Origin: Propioniciclava tarda
Lineage (GTDB): Bacteria > Actinomycetota > Actinomycetes > Propionibacteriales > Propionibacteriaceae
Assembly (NCBI RefSeq): GCF_900182665.1
Contig: NZ_FXTL01000003.1
Span: 124,001 to 188,000, forward strand
DNA length: 64,000 bases
Reading direction: 5' to 3'
This document shows, one piece after another, positions 51,709 through 58,326 of the stretch (position 1 is the first letter of the stretch; each line of letters starts with the position of its first letter). The position numbers and the translations under genes are program-made. The notes below the pieces were generated by a model, which saw nothing but the letters and a program-made list of their open reading frames with translations, did no database searches and had not been told where the DNA came from.

Positions 51709-52086
51709 ATGACACATGGGGTGAGTGACCGGCGCGAGACCGGCGTTTCGGGCGAGGACATCGCGGCCGTGCACCTGGCGCGTCGCGGCTGGCTGATCGT
51801 GGCCCGCAACTGGCGGTGCAGGTCCGGCGAGATCGACATCATCGCGAGGGATCCCGACGGCGTGCTGGTCGTCGTCGAGGTCAAGACGCGGCGCGGGCTC
51901 GGCTTCGGCGACCCGTTGGAGTCGTTGACCTACGCCAAGGTCCGCCGACTCAAGGGCCTGGCCATGGAGTGGGTCCGATCGCAGGAGGACGCCGTCGGCC
52001 CGGTTCGCCTGGACGCCATCGGGGTCTTGTTGGACGCCGACGCGGCTCCCCGGCTGCGGCACGTCCGCAACCTGGAGCAGCCGTGA
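51709..52086 (+). CDS. YraN family (UPF0102) predicted nuclease-fold protein
   Basis: Protein of 125 residues with the PD-(D/E)XK-like YraN pattern: G-E-D-I-A-A-x-H-L-x-R-R-G-W-x-I-x-x-R-N-W-R-C-R-x-G-E-I-D-I-I-A-R-D, then V-V-V-E-V-K-T-R. The acidic and Lys residues E41, D43, E57 and K59 form the putative active site. Its role is unproven, although it is consistently linked to comM and dprA. The ATG at 51709 has GGAGG upstream. Its stop overlaps the comM GTG. Confidence 0.88.
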   Translation: MTHGVSDRRETGVSGEDIAAVHLARRGWLIVARNWRCRSGEIDIIARDPDGVLVVVEVKTRRGLGFGDPLESLTYAKVRRLKGLAMEWVRSQEDAVGPVRLDAIGVLLDADAAPRLRHVRNLEQP

Positions 52087-53623
52087 GGCTCGCGCGGGCG
52101 TGGTCGATCGCGCTGGTCGGCATGGAGGCGACACTGGTCGAAGTCGAGGTGTCGATCGGTGGCGGCCTGCCCAACACGATGATCGTCGGGCTGGGTGACA
52201 CGGCCGTGAAGGAAGCGAGCCAGCGGTGTCGGTCCGCGGTCGCAGCGGCCGGTTTCGCCTGGCCGCCGTCGTCGGTCACCGTCAACCTCACCCCCGCGGA
52301 CATGCCCAAGAGCGGATCGCATTACGACCTGCCCCTGGTGGCGGCCACGATGGCCGCGTCCGGTGTGGTGCCCCGGCGCGCGCTGGAGGCGACGCTGTTC
52401 CTGGGCGAGCTGGGTCTGGACGGGCGGGTGCGATCGGTCCGCGGGGTGCTGCCGGCGGTGCTGGGCGCGAGCCGGTCCGGGTTCGAGCGGGCGGTGGTGC
52501 CGCTGGGCCAGATCCGTGAGGCGCAGCTCGTCGAGGGCATCGGCGTGGTGGGTGTGGAGTCGCTGGGGCACCTCGTGGCGGTTCTGACGGGCGAGCCCTA
52601 TGACGTGGACGTGGTCGATCCTGCCGCTGGCAGTGACGAGGTGGCGGGGAGCAAAGACCTGGCCGACGTCGTCGGTCAGCCCGAGGCGCGGTGGGCGCTC
52701 GAGGTCGCTGCGGCAGGGGGCCATCACCTGTCGATGGTCGGCCCTCCTGGGGTGGGCAAGACGCTGCTGGCCGAGCGGCTGCCGGGCATCCTTCCCGATC
52801 TGGCCGTGGACGAGGCTCTCGAAGTGTCGGCGATCCACTCGATGCTGGGTGCGTCCCTCGAGGGCGGACTCATTCGGCGGCCCCCCTATGCCGACCCCAC
52901 CACTCGGCGTCCCTCCCCGCGCTGGTGGGCGGGGGTCCGCACCTGGCACGTCCGGGAGCGGTGTCGAGGGCCCACCGAGGCGTCCTGTTCCTGGATGAGG
53001 CGTCAGAGTTCTCGCCGGCGGCCCTGGAGGCGCTGCGGACGCCGTTGGAGAAGGGGGTGATCGTGCTGGCGCGGTCCCAGGGGGCAGCCGCGTACCCCGC
53101 CCGGTTCCAGCTGGTGTTGGCCTCCAACCCGTGCCCGTGTGGCTGGTACAACGTGGCGGGATTCGCGTCCCGGTGCCGGTGCCAGCCGTACGCGATCAAG
53201 CGGTACTCGAGCCGACTCTCCGGGCCGATCATCGATCGGATCGACATCCAGCTGCGGCTGCAGCCCTTGAGCAAGTCTCACCTGCGGGGCAACCACCCCA
53301 CCGAAGAGACCTCTGCCGTCGTGGCGCAGCGAGTGCTGGAGGCCAGGTCGCGGCAGCGACACCGCCTCGACCGGCACGGGTTCTCGCGCAACGCGGAGGT
53401 CCCCGGCTCTCTGCTTCATCGGGACCTGCCCAACCCGACCGGTGTGGAGGACGTCGACGCCGCCGTTCGGCGGGGCGTGCTCAGTTCGAGAGGCGTCGAC
53501 AAGGTGCTCCGGCTGGCCTGGACGATCGCCGATCTCATGGGGCACGGGGTTCCCGATCGGGGCGACGTACACACCGCGCTGGCCATGAGACAGGGCGAGA
53601 CCGAGGAGGTGAACTGTGCCTGA
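52083..53623 (+). pseudogene. comM: ComM-type Mg-chelatase-like ATPase interrupted by a one-base frameshift
   Basis: From GTG at 52083 the protein is a normal ComM/YifB: R-L-A-R-A-W-S-I-A-L-V-G, L-P-N-T-M-I-V-G-L-G-D, and Walker A G-P-P-G-V-G-K-T (about 220-227). At 52895-52898 the codon run for D-P-H-H-S-A-S has four C's where five are needed, so translation leaves the good frame near residue 271. The good frame continues in another register from H-H-S-A-S-L-P to 53623 with G-V-L-F-L-D-E-A-S-E-F, N-P-C-P-C-G-W and the C-terminal region intact. ComM is a branch-migration helicase used in natural transformation. A sequencing error in the C run is equally possible. Confidence 0.85.
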
Positions 53624-54863
53624 CGAAGAGCGAGAGGCACGCAGGGCTCTCGCCTGCGTGGTGGAGGCGGGTGAGCCGCGGCTGGCGTCCGCGCTGGGCA
53701 AGGCGGAGCCGCAGGTGATCTGGGAGCGCGTCGCGGCCATGGCGGGCAGACGGCTGGAGGATGGGAGCCACGACCCTTGGGTGCGCCGGGCGTCCGCGAT
53801 CGATCTGGACGCGGTCCGTGCAGGTGAGGTGGCCCATGGGCTGCGGTTCATCATCCCTGGCGACGACGAGTGGCCGGCTGGTCTGTCCGCTCTCGAGGGG
53901 TGCCCCGCGGTTCAGGGCATCGCAGGGGCGCCGATCGGTCTGTGGGTGCGTGGTCCCCGTCCACTGGCGGCGTTGTCGGAGGTGTCGGTGTCCATCGTGG
54001 GGTCGCGGGCTGCGACGTCCTACGGGGAGCGGGTCGCGTCCTCGCTGGCGGGAGGGCTCGCCGAAGCCGGCGTCTGCGTGATCTCCGGTGGCGCGTACGG
54101 CATCGATGCCGCCGCGCACCGGGGCGCACTGGGGGAGAAGGGGACGACGGTCGCGATGCTGGCCTGCGGGCTCGATGATCCGTATCCGAAGCTCAACGTG
54201 GGACTCCTGGAGTCGGTGGCGCGGGCGGGGGCGTTGGTGTCCGAGTACCCGCCCGGAGCACATCCCACGAGACCCCGGTTCCTAGCCCGCAATCGCCTGA
54301 TCGCGGCTCTATCCCAGGGCACGGTGCTCGTCGAGGCCGCCGCCAGGAGCGGCGCCCGCAACACCGTGAGCTGGGCGACCGGGTGCGGTCGCCCCGTGAT
54401 GGCCGTGCCGGGGCCCATCGGCAATGCGACGTCCTACACGCCCCATCGGCTGATCCGGGAGGGCGAGGCGGTGCTGGTCAGCAGCGTCGACGAGGTGCGG
54501 GAGCTGATCGCTCCGCTCGGAACGGTCGCGCTGGGGCGGCCTCGTGCCGGACGCCTCCTCGACACGCTGACCGACGATCAGCGGTCGGTCTACGAGGCCC
54601 TTCCTGCGCGCGGAGGACGCACCGTCGACGACCTCGCGATGCGCGCCGGCCTGCGGATGCCGCTGTGCCTAGCGGCCTTGTCGATCTTGGGCGACGCCGG
54701 GCTGGCGACCTGCCGCTCGGACGGCCGATGGCGGCTCGGATCGGTCTCCGACCAGCCGGTCTTGATCCCCGACGTAGCGACCCCGCCGGCCCTGCAGCCC
54801 GGGAGTCGTCCAACCGAACCGACGATGCCGCGCTCGGTCGCGCCGAAGGAGTCACAGCGATGA
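53616..54863 (+). CDS. dprA: DNA-processing protein A
   Basis: ssDNA-binding RecA loader of 415 residues, needed for natural transformation and recombination. The Rossmann core has V-S-I-V-G-S-R-A-A-T-x-Y-G, V-I-S-G-G-A-Y-G-I-D-A-A-A-H-R-G-A-L, A-C-G-L-D-x-x-Y-P, L-V-S-E-Y-P-P-G, R-F-x-A-R-N-R-L-I-A-A-L-S and V-E-A-A-x-x-S-G-A-x-N-T. A winged-helix C domain (about 325-370) and a Pro/Thr tail follow. The GTG overlaps the comM stop. It is apparently intact although comM is not. Confidence 0.95.
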   Translation: MPDEEREARRALACVVEAGEPRLASALGKAEPQVIWERVAAMAGRRLEDGSHDPWVRRASAIDLDAVRAGEVAHGLRFIIPGDDEWPAGLSALEGCPAVQGIAGAPIGLWVRGPRPLAALSEVSVSIVGSRAATSYGERVASSLAGGLAEAGVCVISGGAYGIDAAAHRGALGEKGTTVAMLACGLDDPYPKLNVGLLESVARAGALVSEYPPGAHPTRPRFLARNRLIAALSQGTVLVEAAARSGARNTVSWATGCGRPVMAVPGPIGNATSYTPHRLIREGEAVLVSSVDEVRELIAPLGTVALGRPRAGRLLDTLTDDQRSVYEALPARGGRTVDDLAMRAGLRMPLCLAALSILGDAGLATCRSDGRWRLGSVSDQPVLIPDVATPPALQPGSRPTEPTMPRSVAPKESQR

Positions 54864-57484
54864 GTACGTTCCGACCCAGGCCCCGACTCACGCTTCGTCA
54901 CGCGGTGGTCTTCGTCGCACTCGTGCTGGTCTGGCAGCTGACCGGGGCGCTGGGCGCCCTCGCCTTGGTCGTGCCCTATGGCTACTCCGGCTACAACAGC
55001 ATCGGCATCTCCGACACTCCGGCCGGCCAGGACCAGTCGTCCGCCACCCACATGGGCACCTTCTTCGGCCGCGTCGCGTCGAACGGGGGAGCTGGGACGG
55101 GCGCCGACCGCGTGGTGTGCATCAACGCCGACCGCAGCACTCCGACCTATCTCGATGCTCACAAGGACGTGTCGACCAACAGCCAGCTCGGCTACCTCGT
55201 CAACAGGTACGTCAACGTGGGAGACGACCGCACCCTCTGGACGCCAGGGGGAGCGGTCAACAGGAACCACCTGTCCTACCCGGCCGGAGGCGCCGCAGCG
55301 CTGCAAGCGGGGGCGCTGCAGTACATCCTTCGAAACGCCCTCGATTCGTCCGCGACCTGGACGGGGATCAAGGCCACGTTCGCACGCGGGAACCCCATGG
55401 CGTACAACGCGATGGTCGACCAGGCTGCCCAGCTGTCCGCAGAGGCGATCAGCATGACCTCACTCTCGGCGGGCCCGGCCGTGGCGGACGTCAACGCGAA
55501 GCACTCGGGCGGCACCGTGACCGGCATCGGCGTCCGCACAGGAACGGGTGACTTCCTGGCGGGCCAGACCTACACCGCCAAGCTGGTGGCCACGCCCGAG
55601 GGGTCTGCCACGTTCCACGGCGGCAAGACGACCCTCACCGGTACGACATCCGCGACGCCCATCCCCCTGGCGTGGGCGGTGACCGACCTGGCCGTCGGGA
55701 CCAACGTGACGTTCGAGATCACCTATACGGGGCCCCTGATCGGTTCGCACTCGTACAAGGTCTACTCGTCGAACGTGGCTGGTCAGCAGGACATGGTGTC
55801 GGCCGGCGCTTTCGCCCCCTCCAGGCTGTCGGCGCAGGCGCAGGCGACCGTCGCACCAGTCGTTCTTACCCCCACGGTGGACTCCAAGGCCGCCGTCCGT
55901 GTCGACCTCCCAGGGGCCGCCTTGAGCGACACCGTGACCGTTGCGGGGCTGGAGCTCCTGGCTGGTCATGAGGTGGCCGTGGTCAACACGATGTACGGGC
56001 CGTTCGCGAGTCGTCCGCCCGCCGGCGGGCCAGTCCCGGACGGGGCGCCGGTGTTCGCGCGGCTGACCAAGACCGTCGTGCCCGAGGCGTCCGGTGCCGG
56101 CACGGTGACGTTCACGAGCCCGGAGGTGACCGCCAAGGGCGGCTACTACGTCTTCGTGGAGTCGGTTCCCGAGCAGCGGGTCGCCGGCTTCCTCGTGAAC
56201 GGCGTGGTGGGGTCGTTTGGTCGGGACGCCGAGACCACCCTCGTCCGGGACGCCGAGGTCACGACCACCGTGTCGCGGCAGGACGCTGTTCTTGGACAGT
56301 CGGTCGCCGACGCCGTTGTCGTGAAGAACGCCGATGGACTCTCAGGCAAAATCGTGGCTCGCCTGTACGGACCCTTCCCCGGACAGGTGACAGCGCCGCC
56401 CACGGATGCGGACTGGCGCAAGGTGGTCGCGGCGGGTCTCGCCCCGGTGACCTCCGAGACGCTGGCCTTCCACGGAAGCGGCACCTACACGACCAAAGCG
56501 GTCAAGCTCAGCTCACCCGGCTACTGGACCTGGCATGAGACGTTGATCGTGCAGGAGACCGGCAGGAAACTCGAGACCGCGTACGGGGTTCCAACCGAGA
56601 CGACACTCGTGATGCGACCGGCGCTGGCGACGAAGGCCAGCGCGCGGGTGGTGCTCATCCGCGGCGCCGCCGTCACCGACGAGGTCATGGTGACCGGGCT
56701 CGGCGAGCAGACCGGGCACGTCGTGGCCAAGCTCTATGGCCCCTTTCCCGAGAGCCGACCAGCAAGCACTGTCCAACCGACTGACACGGAGTGGCGCGAC
56801 GCCATCAAGGCCGGACTAGCGCCCGTCTTCGTCACGTCGCTGGACGCCGTGGGTGACGGCACCGTGACGACAGCGGGGTTCGCGCCGCTGCTGCCGGGCG
56901 TCTACACGTGGTACGAGTCCATGACGGTCGAGGGATCATCTGAGGAGTTCGAGACCCCACTCGGTGTCAGCTCCGAGACCTTCAGCGCCATTGAGCCGCG
57001 CCTCACGACCGTGGCGAAGGCGACCACGACGATGGTCGGCGGCCACCTCTCGGACACCATCGTGCTGTCGGGCACCGGTGGACAGCCCGGGACCATTCTG
57101 GGCGAGCTCCTGCACGCGGAGGGCGTTGACTGCACCCGCGTCGACTGGGCGACGGCGACCCGCCAGCGGATCAAGAGCATCACGACGTCAGGGGACGGAA
57201 CGTTCCAGACCGAGTCGTTCACCGCCGATCGAGCCGGCTGCTGGACCTTCGTCGAGACCTGGACCGCAGACGTCGACCCGGCTGTCACGGTCGCCACGTC
57301 GCCGGGGGAGCCGTCCGAAACGGTGCGGATCTCCCCCAAGCCGAGCGCCGAGGGCGCGGGTGCCGCCACCGGCTGGTCGCCCGACGCGCCGAACGAGGTG
57401 CTCGTCGGGGTCGGCGCGGCCGCGGGCACCGTCGGGGTGGCCCTCCTCCTGGCTCCCAGCTTCCACTCCCGGCGGAAACCGTGA
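54860..57484 (+). CDS. Large secreted, membrane-anchored surface protein with tandem repeats
   Basis: Product of 874 residues. A basic N terminus and hydrophobic helix (about 10-38) form a signal peptide; a C-terminal hydrophobic helix ends in S-R-R-K-P. No LPXTG is present; the sequence before the helix is T-G-W-S-P-D-A-P-N. An N-terminal domain (about 45-190) contains a single C-I-N and a later A-L-Q-A-G-A-L-Q helix, vaguely like thioester adhesin domains. From about 335 four repeats of roughly 120-140 residues recur, with L-S-D-T-V/I, G-H-V/E-V-A-x-L-Y-G-P-F and Y-T-W-Y/H-E. It starts ATGA-overlapped with dprA. Probably an adhesin or wall-surface stalk (inference). Confidence 0.85.
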   Translation: MSTFRPRPRLTLRHAVVFVALVLVWQLTGALGALALVVPYGYSGYNSIGISDTPAGQDQSSATHMGTFFGRVASNGGAGTGADRVVCINADRSTPTYLDAHKDVSTNSQLGYLVNRYVNVGDDRTLWTPGGAVNRNHLSYPAGGAAALQAGALQYILRNALDSSATWTGIKATFARGNPMAYNAMVDQAAQLSAEAISMTSLSAGPAVADVNAKHSGGTVTGIGVRTGTGDFLAGQTYTAKLVATPEGSATFHGGKTTLTGTTSATPIPLAWAVTDLAVGTNVTFEITYTGPLIGSHSYKVYSSNVAGQQDMVSAGAFAPSRLSAQAQATVAPVVLTPTVDSKAAVRVDLPGAALSDTVTVAGLELLAGHEVAVVNTMYGPFASRPPAGGPVPDGAPVFARLTKTVVPEASGAGTVTFTSPEVTAKGGYYVFVESVPEQRVAGFLVNGVVGSFGRDAETTLVRDAEVTTTVSRQDAVLGQSVADAVVVKNADGLSGKIVARLYGPFPGQVTAPPTDADWRKVVAAGLAPVTSETLAFHGSGTYTTKAVKLSSPGYWTWHETLIVQETGRKLETAYGVPTETTLVMRPALATKASARVVLIRGAAVTDEVMVTGLGEQTGHVVAKLYGPFPESRPASTVQPTDTEWRDAIKAGLAPVFVTSLDAVGDGTVTTAGFAPLLPGVYTWYESMTVEGSSEEFETPLGVSSETFSAIEPRLTTVAKATTTMVGGHLSDTIVLSGTGGQPGTILGELLHAEGVDCTRVDWATATRQRIKSITTSGDGTFQTESFTADRAGCWTFVETWTADVDPAVTVATSPGEPSETVRISPKPSAEGAGAATGWSPDAPNEVLVGVGAAAGTVGVALLLAPSFHSRRKP

Positions 57485-58326
57485 GGCGGGCACGTGGCCG
57501 GCGGGTGCTGGGTGCAGCCACCGGGCTCCAGTCTGCGGGACTCGGTCGAGCGGGGTGCCCTCCGCGACGGGCCGTGAGCGGCTGGCCGGTCCCGGGCCCG
57601 CCGAGGTGGGGACGGCTCATCCGGATGGCCGGCGTCGGACTGGTTCTGGCCGGTGCGGTGCTGGTCGGGCTGGGGCAGTGGTGGCTCAGGGTTCCCGGCA
57701 TCGAGCCTCCCGCGCTGCCGTACGCCTTCGATCTGGACGCGTCCCAGTCCACGACGCCAACGACCGATGCCTCCCCGGCATCGTCGTCGCCAGAGGACGG
57801 GGCCAACGCCGGCATTGTCCAACCGACGCCATCGGCCGCGCCGGAGCGGATGTCGGTGAGCATCCCGGCTCTAGCGCTCAAGGCGAGAATCGTGCCCGCG
57901 GACTCGTTCGAGCAGGTCGGCGCCCTGAGGTCCCTGTCGATCCCATCGGACGCCAGCGCGGCGGCCTGGTTCAGCGGCGGCGGGACCGTGGCCAACCTGG
58001 GCCGCGGTACGACGCTCGTCGCCGGCCACGTGGTCAACGACGGGCGGCGAGGGGCCTTCTTCTCGTTGTCCCTGGCCAAACCCGGCATGCTCGTCTACAC
58101 CACGGACGCGGACGGCCGACGACGCGAGTGGTCCGTCGCCGGGTCGCGCCAGACCCCCAAGGCCCCGTTTCCCGCCGACTTCTGGTCGGCCGAAGGCCCG
58201 GCGCGACTGGTCCTGGTGACGTGCGGTGGCCGAGTTCTCCCGGACGGTCATTTCGAGGACAACATCATCGTGACCGCGGTGCCGACCGGACGACTCGAAC
58301 CGGGCGCCGCAACCGGGGGGGCCTAG
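57481..58326 (+). CDS. Sortase-like transpeptidase (class E/F type)
   Basis: Membrane protein of 281 residues: a basic N tail, one transmembrane helix (about 47-68), a Ser/Thr/Pro linker and a sortase barrel from about 122. The catalytic His is H183 (V-A-G-H-V-V) and the Cys is C248 (V-L-V-T-C-G-G). The expected Arg before the N-I/V-V strand is replaced: the sequence reads D-G-H-F-E-D-N where relatives have R-H-Y-x-D-N, leaving only R251 near. GTG start overlaps the surface protein stop. It most likely attaches that protein to the wall, but both the substrate motif and the Arg are atypical. Confidence 0.85.
   Translation: MRRARGRRVLGAATGLQSAGLGRAGCPPRRAVSGWPVPGPPRWGRLIRMAGVGLVLAGAVLVGLGQWWLRVPGIEPPALPYAFDLDASQSTTPTTDASPASSSPEDGANAGIVQPTPSAAPERMSVSIPALALKARIVPADSFEQVGALRSLSIPSDASAAAWFSGGGTVANLGRGTTLVAGHVVNDGRRGAFFSLSLAKPGMLVYTTDADGRRREWSVAGSRQTPKAPFPADFWSAEGPARLVLVTCGGRVLPDGHFEDNIIVTAVPTGRLEPGAATGGA

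Follow-up and report, generated by a model that had tools for sequence, protein, structure and literature searches.

How is a surface protein attached to the cell wall when its tail carries no LPXTG motif and the sortase encoded with it appears to lack the catalytic arginine? This question is raised by a gene pair of Propioniciclava tarda (genome size 2.97 Mb) in the stretch of 64,000 nucleotides that we analyzed, here called the window. The surface-protein and sortase genes overlap by 4 bp (Table 1) and, because the ATG of the surface-protein gene overlaps the stop codon of dprA on its 5' side (53616-54863; PF02481, E 1.5e-62), the three may form one co-translated unit. Searches of 12 further genomes of the genus find dprA, with no relatives of the surface protein or sortase beside it in flanks of up to 1.5 kb. 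The pair 3' of dprA is unique to this genome among 13 genomes of the genus and looks like an accessory insertion. Promoter and terminator scans gave nothing above chance expectation. At 51816-53623 of the window a ComM/YifB-like gene is apparently split, by a frameshift or a sequencing error, into two overlapping ORFs in different frames; the second ORF matches Mg_chelatase and the first was judged by eye.

Table 1. Features of the surface-protein and sortase genes, in window coordinates.
Feature	Coordinates	Strand	Basis
Surface protein, 874 aa	54860..57484	+	ATG start; 4-bp overlap with dprA stop
Signal-peptide-like hydrophobic segment, about residues 14-38	54899..54973	+	Hydropathy
N-terminal domain with Cys87	54974..55474	+	Alignment with relatives
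Four beta-sandwich repeats, residues 345-471, 472-594, 595-719, 720-833	55892..57358	+	Model, fold search
Putative sorting-signal core A835-A836-T837-G838, predicted cut between T837 and G838	57362..57373	+	Spacing to hydrophobic segment; relatives
Surface-protein stretch spanning the predicted Thr-Gly site: SAEGAGAATGWSPDAP			
C-terminal hydrophobic segment and basic tail ending SRRKP	57398..57481	+	Hydropathy, sequence
Class-F-like sortase, 281 aa	57481..58326	+	GTG start; PF04203 E 4.5e-11
N-terminal membrane segment of sortase, about residues 45-64	57613..57672	+	Hydropathy
Catalytic His183	58027..58029	+	His in 238/238 aligned rows
Lys227, beta6/beta7 loop; commonest basic residue of the sortase family	58159..58161	+	K 177/238, R 14/238
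Thr247-Cys248, catalytic Cys	58219..58224	+	Thr 237/238, Cys 238/238 rows
Arg251, beta7/beta8 loop, candidate substitute Arg	58231..58233	+	Loop-Arg counts; no significance on tree
Glu259, site of Arg in YRDN relatives	58255..58257	+	Alignments
Asn261, aligned to canonical catalytic Arg	58261..58263	+	Alignments; Asn in 233/238 rows

The surface protein has the layout given in the original prediction: a signal peptide, four repeats, a C-terminal helix followed by S-R-R-K-P, and no LPXTG-like motif. The C-terminal hydrophobic stretch covers about residues 847-865, the four repeats (residues 345-833) have diverged from one another, and LPXT[GA], [NSP]PXTG and LAXTG are absent across the whole protein, whose tail reads GAATG at 834-838. 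Neither Pfam nor NCBIfam yields a family at E<=1; with the repeats alone, Pfam gives zero matches for the window and scattered weak ones for relatives, a PDB sequence search gives a single chance-like match, and DNA-level repeats inside the gene are short or weak. A model of the repeats built from 16 sequences has beta-sandwich domains at moderate confidence (pLDDT 83, pTM 0.57). Fold searches with it return many beta-sandwich proteins and no specific family; the nearest solved structures are beta-sandwich repeat proteins of a generic kind, including two bacterial adhesin stalks, 4mkm (Z 12.0, rmsd 10.5 over 212) and 6xi3 (Z 11.1, rmsd 11.9 over 366), at Z values that are frequent among repeat proteins. 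The window repeats share the tandem beta-sandwich arrangement of these stalks and differ from them in matching no sequence family. In the N-terminal domain, Cys87 stands in the context VCIN, and most aligned relatives have FCID or WCID. Together with Gln149 this cysteine suggested a Cys-Gln thioester adhesin domain, a reading that we did not adopt, as the aligned separate-gene relatives do not conserve the Gln that a thioester needs.

The sortase exceeds the PF04203 cut-off (43 bits against 26.6), and its sole NCBIfam match is the class F family NF033748, at 67.4 bits over the full length and 69.4 for the domain against a curated cut-off of 166. Because this is its only match and yet falls below the cut-off, we call the enzyme class-F-like. 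An AlphaFold model from 76 sequences has a confident sortase fold (pLDDT 88, pTM 0.82) and, among the 50 matches listed, resembles solved class A, C and E sortases with Z of 13.8-17.0, for instance SrtE of T. fusca (Z 16.2, rmsd 2.1 over 130). PDB entry 5UUS, whose database name is SrtF of Corynebacterium diphtheriae and which serves as a class F structure in two papers, is 29th among the matches listed to the model; it is not among the sequence matches of the class F profiles built here. The window enzyme retains His183, Thr247, Cys248, Gly250, Asn261 and Ala266, which are among the most conserved residues of the sortase family, and His183 and Cys248, the two that the original prediction had named as kept, align with those of all relatives. 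Elsewhere in the same genome, a second class-E-like sortase is split across two reading frames (contig C1:49246-49636; loci L002 and L004), and a 71-residue frame on contig C7 (24521-24652) has short similarity to the 229-269 region of the window sortase.

Where, then, does the canonical Arg belong? It had been expected near residue 256 and reported as replaced by Gly. Residue 256 is indeed Gly and the Arg is indeed missing, but the site was misplaced: the position derives from class A loop spacing (eight residues from Cys), and the class F loop is longer than the class A loop. When class A sortase chains are aligned, their catalytic Arg pairs with Asn261 of a Y-x-x-N motif. In the first such alignment it is a class A chimera carrying the S. 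aureus loop that extends as far as the strand; the chains of the second (2mlm, 1t2p and 1ija) we take to be S. aureus SrtA, and the paired residue is presumably its Arg197. When 30 class-E-like sortases are aligned by profile in global mode, their invariant Arg likewise falls on Asn261, whereas a low-threshold local profile alignment puts that Arg in the loop column before Phe258 and leaves Asn261 unpaired; further profile-profile alignments ended early, one short of the strand. Five residues past the Asn261/Arg place, Ala or Gly is found in 198 of 208 sortases (among the matches listed and the best 80 of 206). Provided that there is no gap in the strand, the ends of the structural range, read against SrtE1 Arg329 and S. 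pyogenes SrtA Arg216, bring the Arg to Asn261 or a directly adjacent residue. Judged by these alignments, Asn261 most likely occupies the canonical Arg place and the window Arg is truly absent, at a site other than Gly256. On strand beta8 there is no active-site Arg: Asn261 stands at the aligned place, and Glu259 at the place, two residues before the Asn, where some relatives have the Arg of a YRDN motif.

None of the alignments run places another Arg in the active site, an outcome that agrees with the original prediction, and Arg251 is a candidate only. As a replacement Arg251 was rejected: a loop Arg is found in 32/143 Arg-less against 2/65 Arg-bearing sortases, in a sample partly picked by a pattern that limits that place to R, P or E, and independent tree pairs give a median p of 1. 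There is likewise no universal alternative basic residue, Lys227 being the commonest. A stricter requirement for Asn where the YRDN Arg is lacking (138/138 against 61/64 distinct rows; Fisher p 0.03, uncorrected for relatedness) was considered weak and set aside.

We find that Asn in place of Arg is widespread. In 202 distinct related sortases among the matches listed (208 rows, six of which repeat others), His and Cys are found in 202/202, Asn261 in 199/202 and the YRDN Arg in 64/202, about a third of relatives. The samples behind these counts were drawn differently. His and Cys are kept in all of 121 sortases, among the matches listed, from the window and 120 order-level loci, and the YRDN Arg is present in 27/121; these loci are the top of a profile listing together with earlier matches, and the profile derives from sequences related to the Arg-less window enzyme. 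Eighty named Actinomycetota loci, the best 80 of 206 picked by the pattern R[LV][VIA][LV]VTCGG[RPE], contain 87 sortases, of which 38 have the YRDN Arg. Three contigs were sampled twice (L215/L160, L199/L156 and L202/L159). The only sample independent of the window, the best match in 30 of the 68 genomes over the class F cut-off, has His in 30/30, Cys in 30/30, Asn in 29/30 and the YRDN Arg in 6/30. The alignment of class E and class F families that the original prediction had suggested sets Asn in 29 of 30 class F enzymes against Arg in 30 of 30 class-E-like controls; in the one control whose class E label was checked, class E is the best match (154.3 bits, just below the cut-off of 160). The catalytic Cys is present in 27 of the 30 controls; three class-E-like paralogues (L295, L297 and L300) have the Arg but Ala or Ser for the Cys. 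A tree computed with the loop and Arg columns left out requires at least 23 changes of Arg state and gives nine independent pairs on supported branches.

These counts agree with a report that in Streptomyces class F the Arg is replaced by Asn, which cites Malik and Kim 2019 for Actinobacteria (PMC6998099); a 2026 paper states that all sortases carry His-Cys-Arg (PMC13257024). Because Asn for Arg is a published property of class F (PMC6998099), the lack of the Arg in the window enzyme is not exceptional. The suggestion of a different chemistry special to this pair is therefore not borne out, as class F as a whole has Asn for Arg and the window enzyme retains His, Cys and the Thr that precedes Cys. 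Ordinary cysteine transpeptidase chemistry is the most likely one for the class-F-like sortase.

The second part of the question concerns the sorting signal, for which T-G-W-S-P-D-A-P-N had been put forward. A noncanonical signal is supported, with the likely cleavage at the TG of that string, within A-A-T-G. T837-G838 stands eight residues ahead of a 17-residue hydrophobic window with the basic tail SRRKP behind it, at the place that the TG takes in an LPXTG signal, a spacing that the original prediction left unremarked. The sorting signal is probably A835-A-T-G838, and it looks like an unusual, weakened version of LPXTG.

A search for co-occurring substrates was also proposed at the outset. 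Among the matches listed, an ORF that lies no more than 700 nt upstream and ends in a hydrophobic stretch plus basic tail accompanies 128 of the 208 related sortases (46/65 of those with the YRDN Arg and 82/143 of those without it), and 80 have no partner by these criteria, which are distance, hydrophobic stretch and basic tail alone. Only 3 of 123 distinct partner tails have a classical pentapeptide; their cores include VPGGTGG, VDAGTSG, VNTGTGG, VETGG, INSG, IRAG, IPAG and HPATG. The pattern [VILP].[TSAG]G occurs in the last 25 residues of 118/123 tails, against 60.9 after shuffling and 17/80 other such ORFs, and the wider [VILPA].[TSAG]G in 121/123, against 81.1 after shuffling and 24/80 other such ORFs of the same loci, although shuffling overstates independence because the partner tails are mutually related. 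The window signal fits the wider core only. The spacing from core to hydrophobic window is most commonly 10-13 residues, and five other partners share the window's spacing of 8. Two partners adjoining class F sortases (L322 and L323) both bear GGAATGGGG. The class is not uniform in its signal, since the enzyme of Cutibacterium acnes, said to be the only characterized class F enzyme, is said to recognize LPXTG (PMC13257024). Two repeat proteins that adjoin class-F-like sortases (L164, on the reverse strand, and L167, the genes of L020 and L024) end in LRIPSG and a few residues, without a hydrophobic segment or basic tail; here the signal is the extreme C-terminus.

The repeats were also searched for in 246 genomes of the phylum, and 15 (own genome included) gave matches. 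Of the other repeat ORFs, six distinct ones have LPFTG, LPATG, LPRTG or LPVTG followed by a hydrophobic stretch and basic tail. Three have [VS]RTG, two more are clearly sortase-fused, and the rest are cut or signal-less; the nine signal-bearing matches range in E from 4e-10 to 2e-38, some of them distant. The lack of LPXTG-like motifs does not extend to all surface proteins with similar repeats, an outcome that the original prediction had named as evidence against it, and the comparison suggests that the window TG occupies the LPXTG place of its repeat relatives.

Of the 208 rows, 26 have window-like repeats next to or inside the sortase gene, on 25 distinct contigs (L156 and L199 being the same). 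At 17 of these 26 loci, repeats and sortase domain form one ORF (L192, L195-L198, L201, L203, L205, L206, L210, L214, L218, L221, L249 and L269, with weaker matches at L092 and L146). Going by record title, nine of the 17 are from Thermoleophilia or from genera that we take to belong there; one of these nine, L205, is on a complete chromosome (Svornostia abyssi). These fusions support a working pair of surface protein and sortase. None of the 17 fused ORFs has a hydrophobic window between the repeats and the sortase domain, so they cannot work exactly like a textbook pair.

Based on these data, we propose, with a probability of roughly 0.7, that the genes encode a sortase and its own substrate, a dedicated pair of the class F kind, in which the sortase cuts the surface protein between Thr and Gly of A-A-T-G and joins it to the wall. 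The surface protein would be exported via its signal peptide and kept in the membrane by its C-terminal helix until the co-encoded sortase cuts between T837 and G838 of the diverged signal. Cys248, acting with His183, would form the acyl-enzyme, the oxyanion would be held by Thr247 and backbone amides, with Asn261 at the place of the Arg of other classes, and the acyl group would be handed to an acceptor in the cell wall, presumably lipid II. The four beta-sandwich repeats and the N-terminal domain would then project out of the wall. What the data show directly are the gene pair, a predicted sortase fold, the conserved residues, the family of signals and the fusions among relatives; the activity, the cleavage site, the acceptor and the role of Asn261 are what we infer. 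Several observations weigh against this proposal: the sortase scores 67 bits where class F requires 166, the signal misses the stricter core and 80 of 208 sortases have no partner, and the pair is unique 3' of dprA in the 13 genomes. Published results also count against it, namely the reported LPXTG reading of the C. acnes enzyme (PMC13257024), the inactivity of R216A in a class A enzyme (PMC9520033) and the report that quadruple class F deletion in A. missouriensis brought no phenotypic change (PMC13251363).

The absence of relatives beside dprA in the 12 other genomes, the signal without its usual hydrophobic residue and the class F score far under the cut-off would all fit a sortase that is degenerate or inactive and a surface protein that remains a plain membrane protein. 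We consider this rather unlikely, given that both ORFs are open, the six conserved residues from His183 to Ala266 are all retained and the fold model is confident. The fused ORFs, all 17 of which have no hydrophobic window between repeats and sortase domain, raise another idea, that the Cys serves a different reaction on the surface protein, for example proteolytic release or a lasting covalent tether; but in the window the two proteins are separate and the surface protein has its hydrophobic segment and basic tail, and Asn for Arg is common to the whole class, which makes this quite improbable. Very improbable, finally, is anchoring of the surface protein by the intact class-E-like sortase of contig C9 (best NCBIfam match class E, 154.3 bits against 160), which adjoins a protein ending in LPQTGG, a hydrophobic stretch and a basic tail and would leave some other job to the class-F-like enzyme, as the surface-protein and class-F-like genes overlap, repeats are fused to class-F-like sortase domains at 17 of 26 loci and AATG is unlike LPQTG. 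The LPQTGG protein (L001, 21-1217) is presumably DUF11-like.

We return to the dedicated class F-kind pair. The window pair is a somewhat outlying member of this known kind, and a more general picture can be drawn tentatively, at a little under even odds: class F and class-F-like enzymes would form a His-Cys-Asn branch that reads x-x-[T/S/A/G]-G from one dedicated neighbor, with the Arg two residues before the Asn optional and repeatedly gained or lost, the stalk fused to the sortase in some lineages, Thermoleophilia foremost, and the window pair an outlying AATG case. We did not find the class-wide signal core or the stalk-sortase fusions in the open-access papers that we searched, and they seem to be less known. 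If true, the shared core and the natural fusions would provide candidate substrates for many class F enzymes, whose function or physiological role is called unknown in two reports (PMC6998099, PMC13251363).

Natural Asn-for-Arg enzymes, if active, would also be relevant to the question of what the sortase Arg is for, chemistry or the choice of substrate. For a class A enzyme, Arg216 is reported to contact the P4 and P3 carbonyls and not the P1 carbonyl, Thr207 is proposed for the oxyanion, and R216A abolished activity (PMC9520033). The same work describes an evolved SaSrtA for LMVGG that is active with Ser replacing the Arg, and its authors argue that the Arg serves substrate choice (PMC9520033). 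The natural pattern in the sortases compared here, in which Thr, Cys and His are fixed, the Arg is absent and the signal is changed, would fit that argument.

Among known systems, the window enzyme is most readily compared with class F sortases (NF033748; SrtF1-4 of Actinoplanes missouriensis; Streptomyces), which likewise have His, Cys and Asn for Arg (PMC6998099). As in the window, SrtF1 and SrtF4 of A. missouriensis have a neighbor protein with a signal peptide, a helix, a basic tail and no classical pentapeptide, and the authors name these neighbors as possible class F substrates, while describing no phenotypic change on deletion of all four class F sortases (PMC13251363). Unlike class F, the window sortase lies below the cut-off, has Glu259 and Arg251, and is paired with an AATG core without V, I, L or P ahead of it, where the characterized C. 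acnes enzyme is said to take LPXTG (PMC13257024). SrtE1 of Streptomyces coelicolor shares the fold of the window sortase (Z 15.8, rmsd 2.7 over 137) and reads LAXTG, which the window AATG resembles minus the Leu; unlike the window sortase, SrtE1 keeps its Arg329 (PMC5148588), as 30 of 30 class-E-like relatives keep theirs. The evolved SaSrtA for LMVGG differs from the window sortase in being made in the laboratory from a class A enzyme and in having Ser for Arg; like the window enzyme it combines the loss of the Arg with an altered signal, and in this form it is active (PMC9520033).
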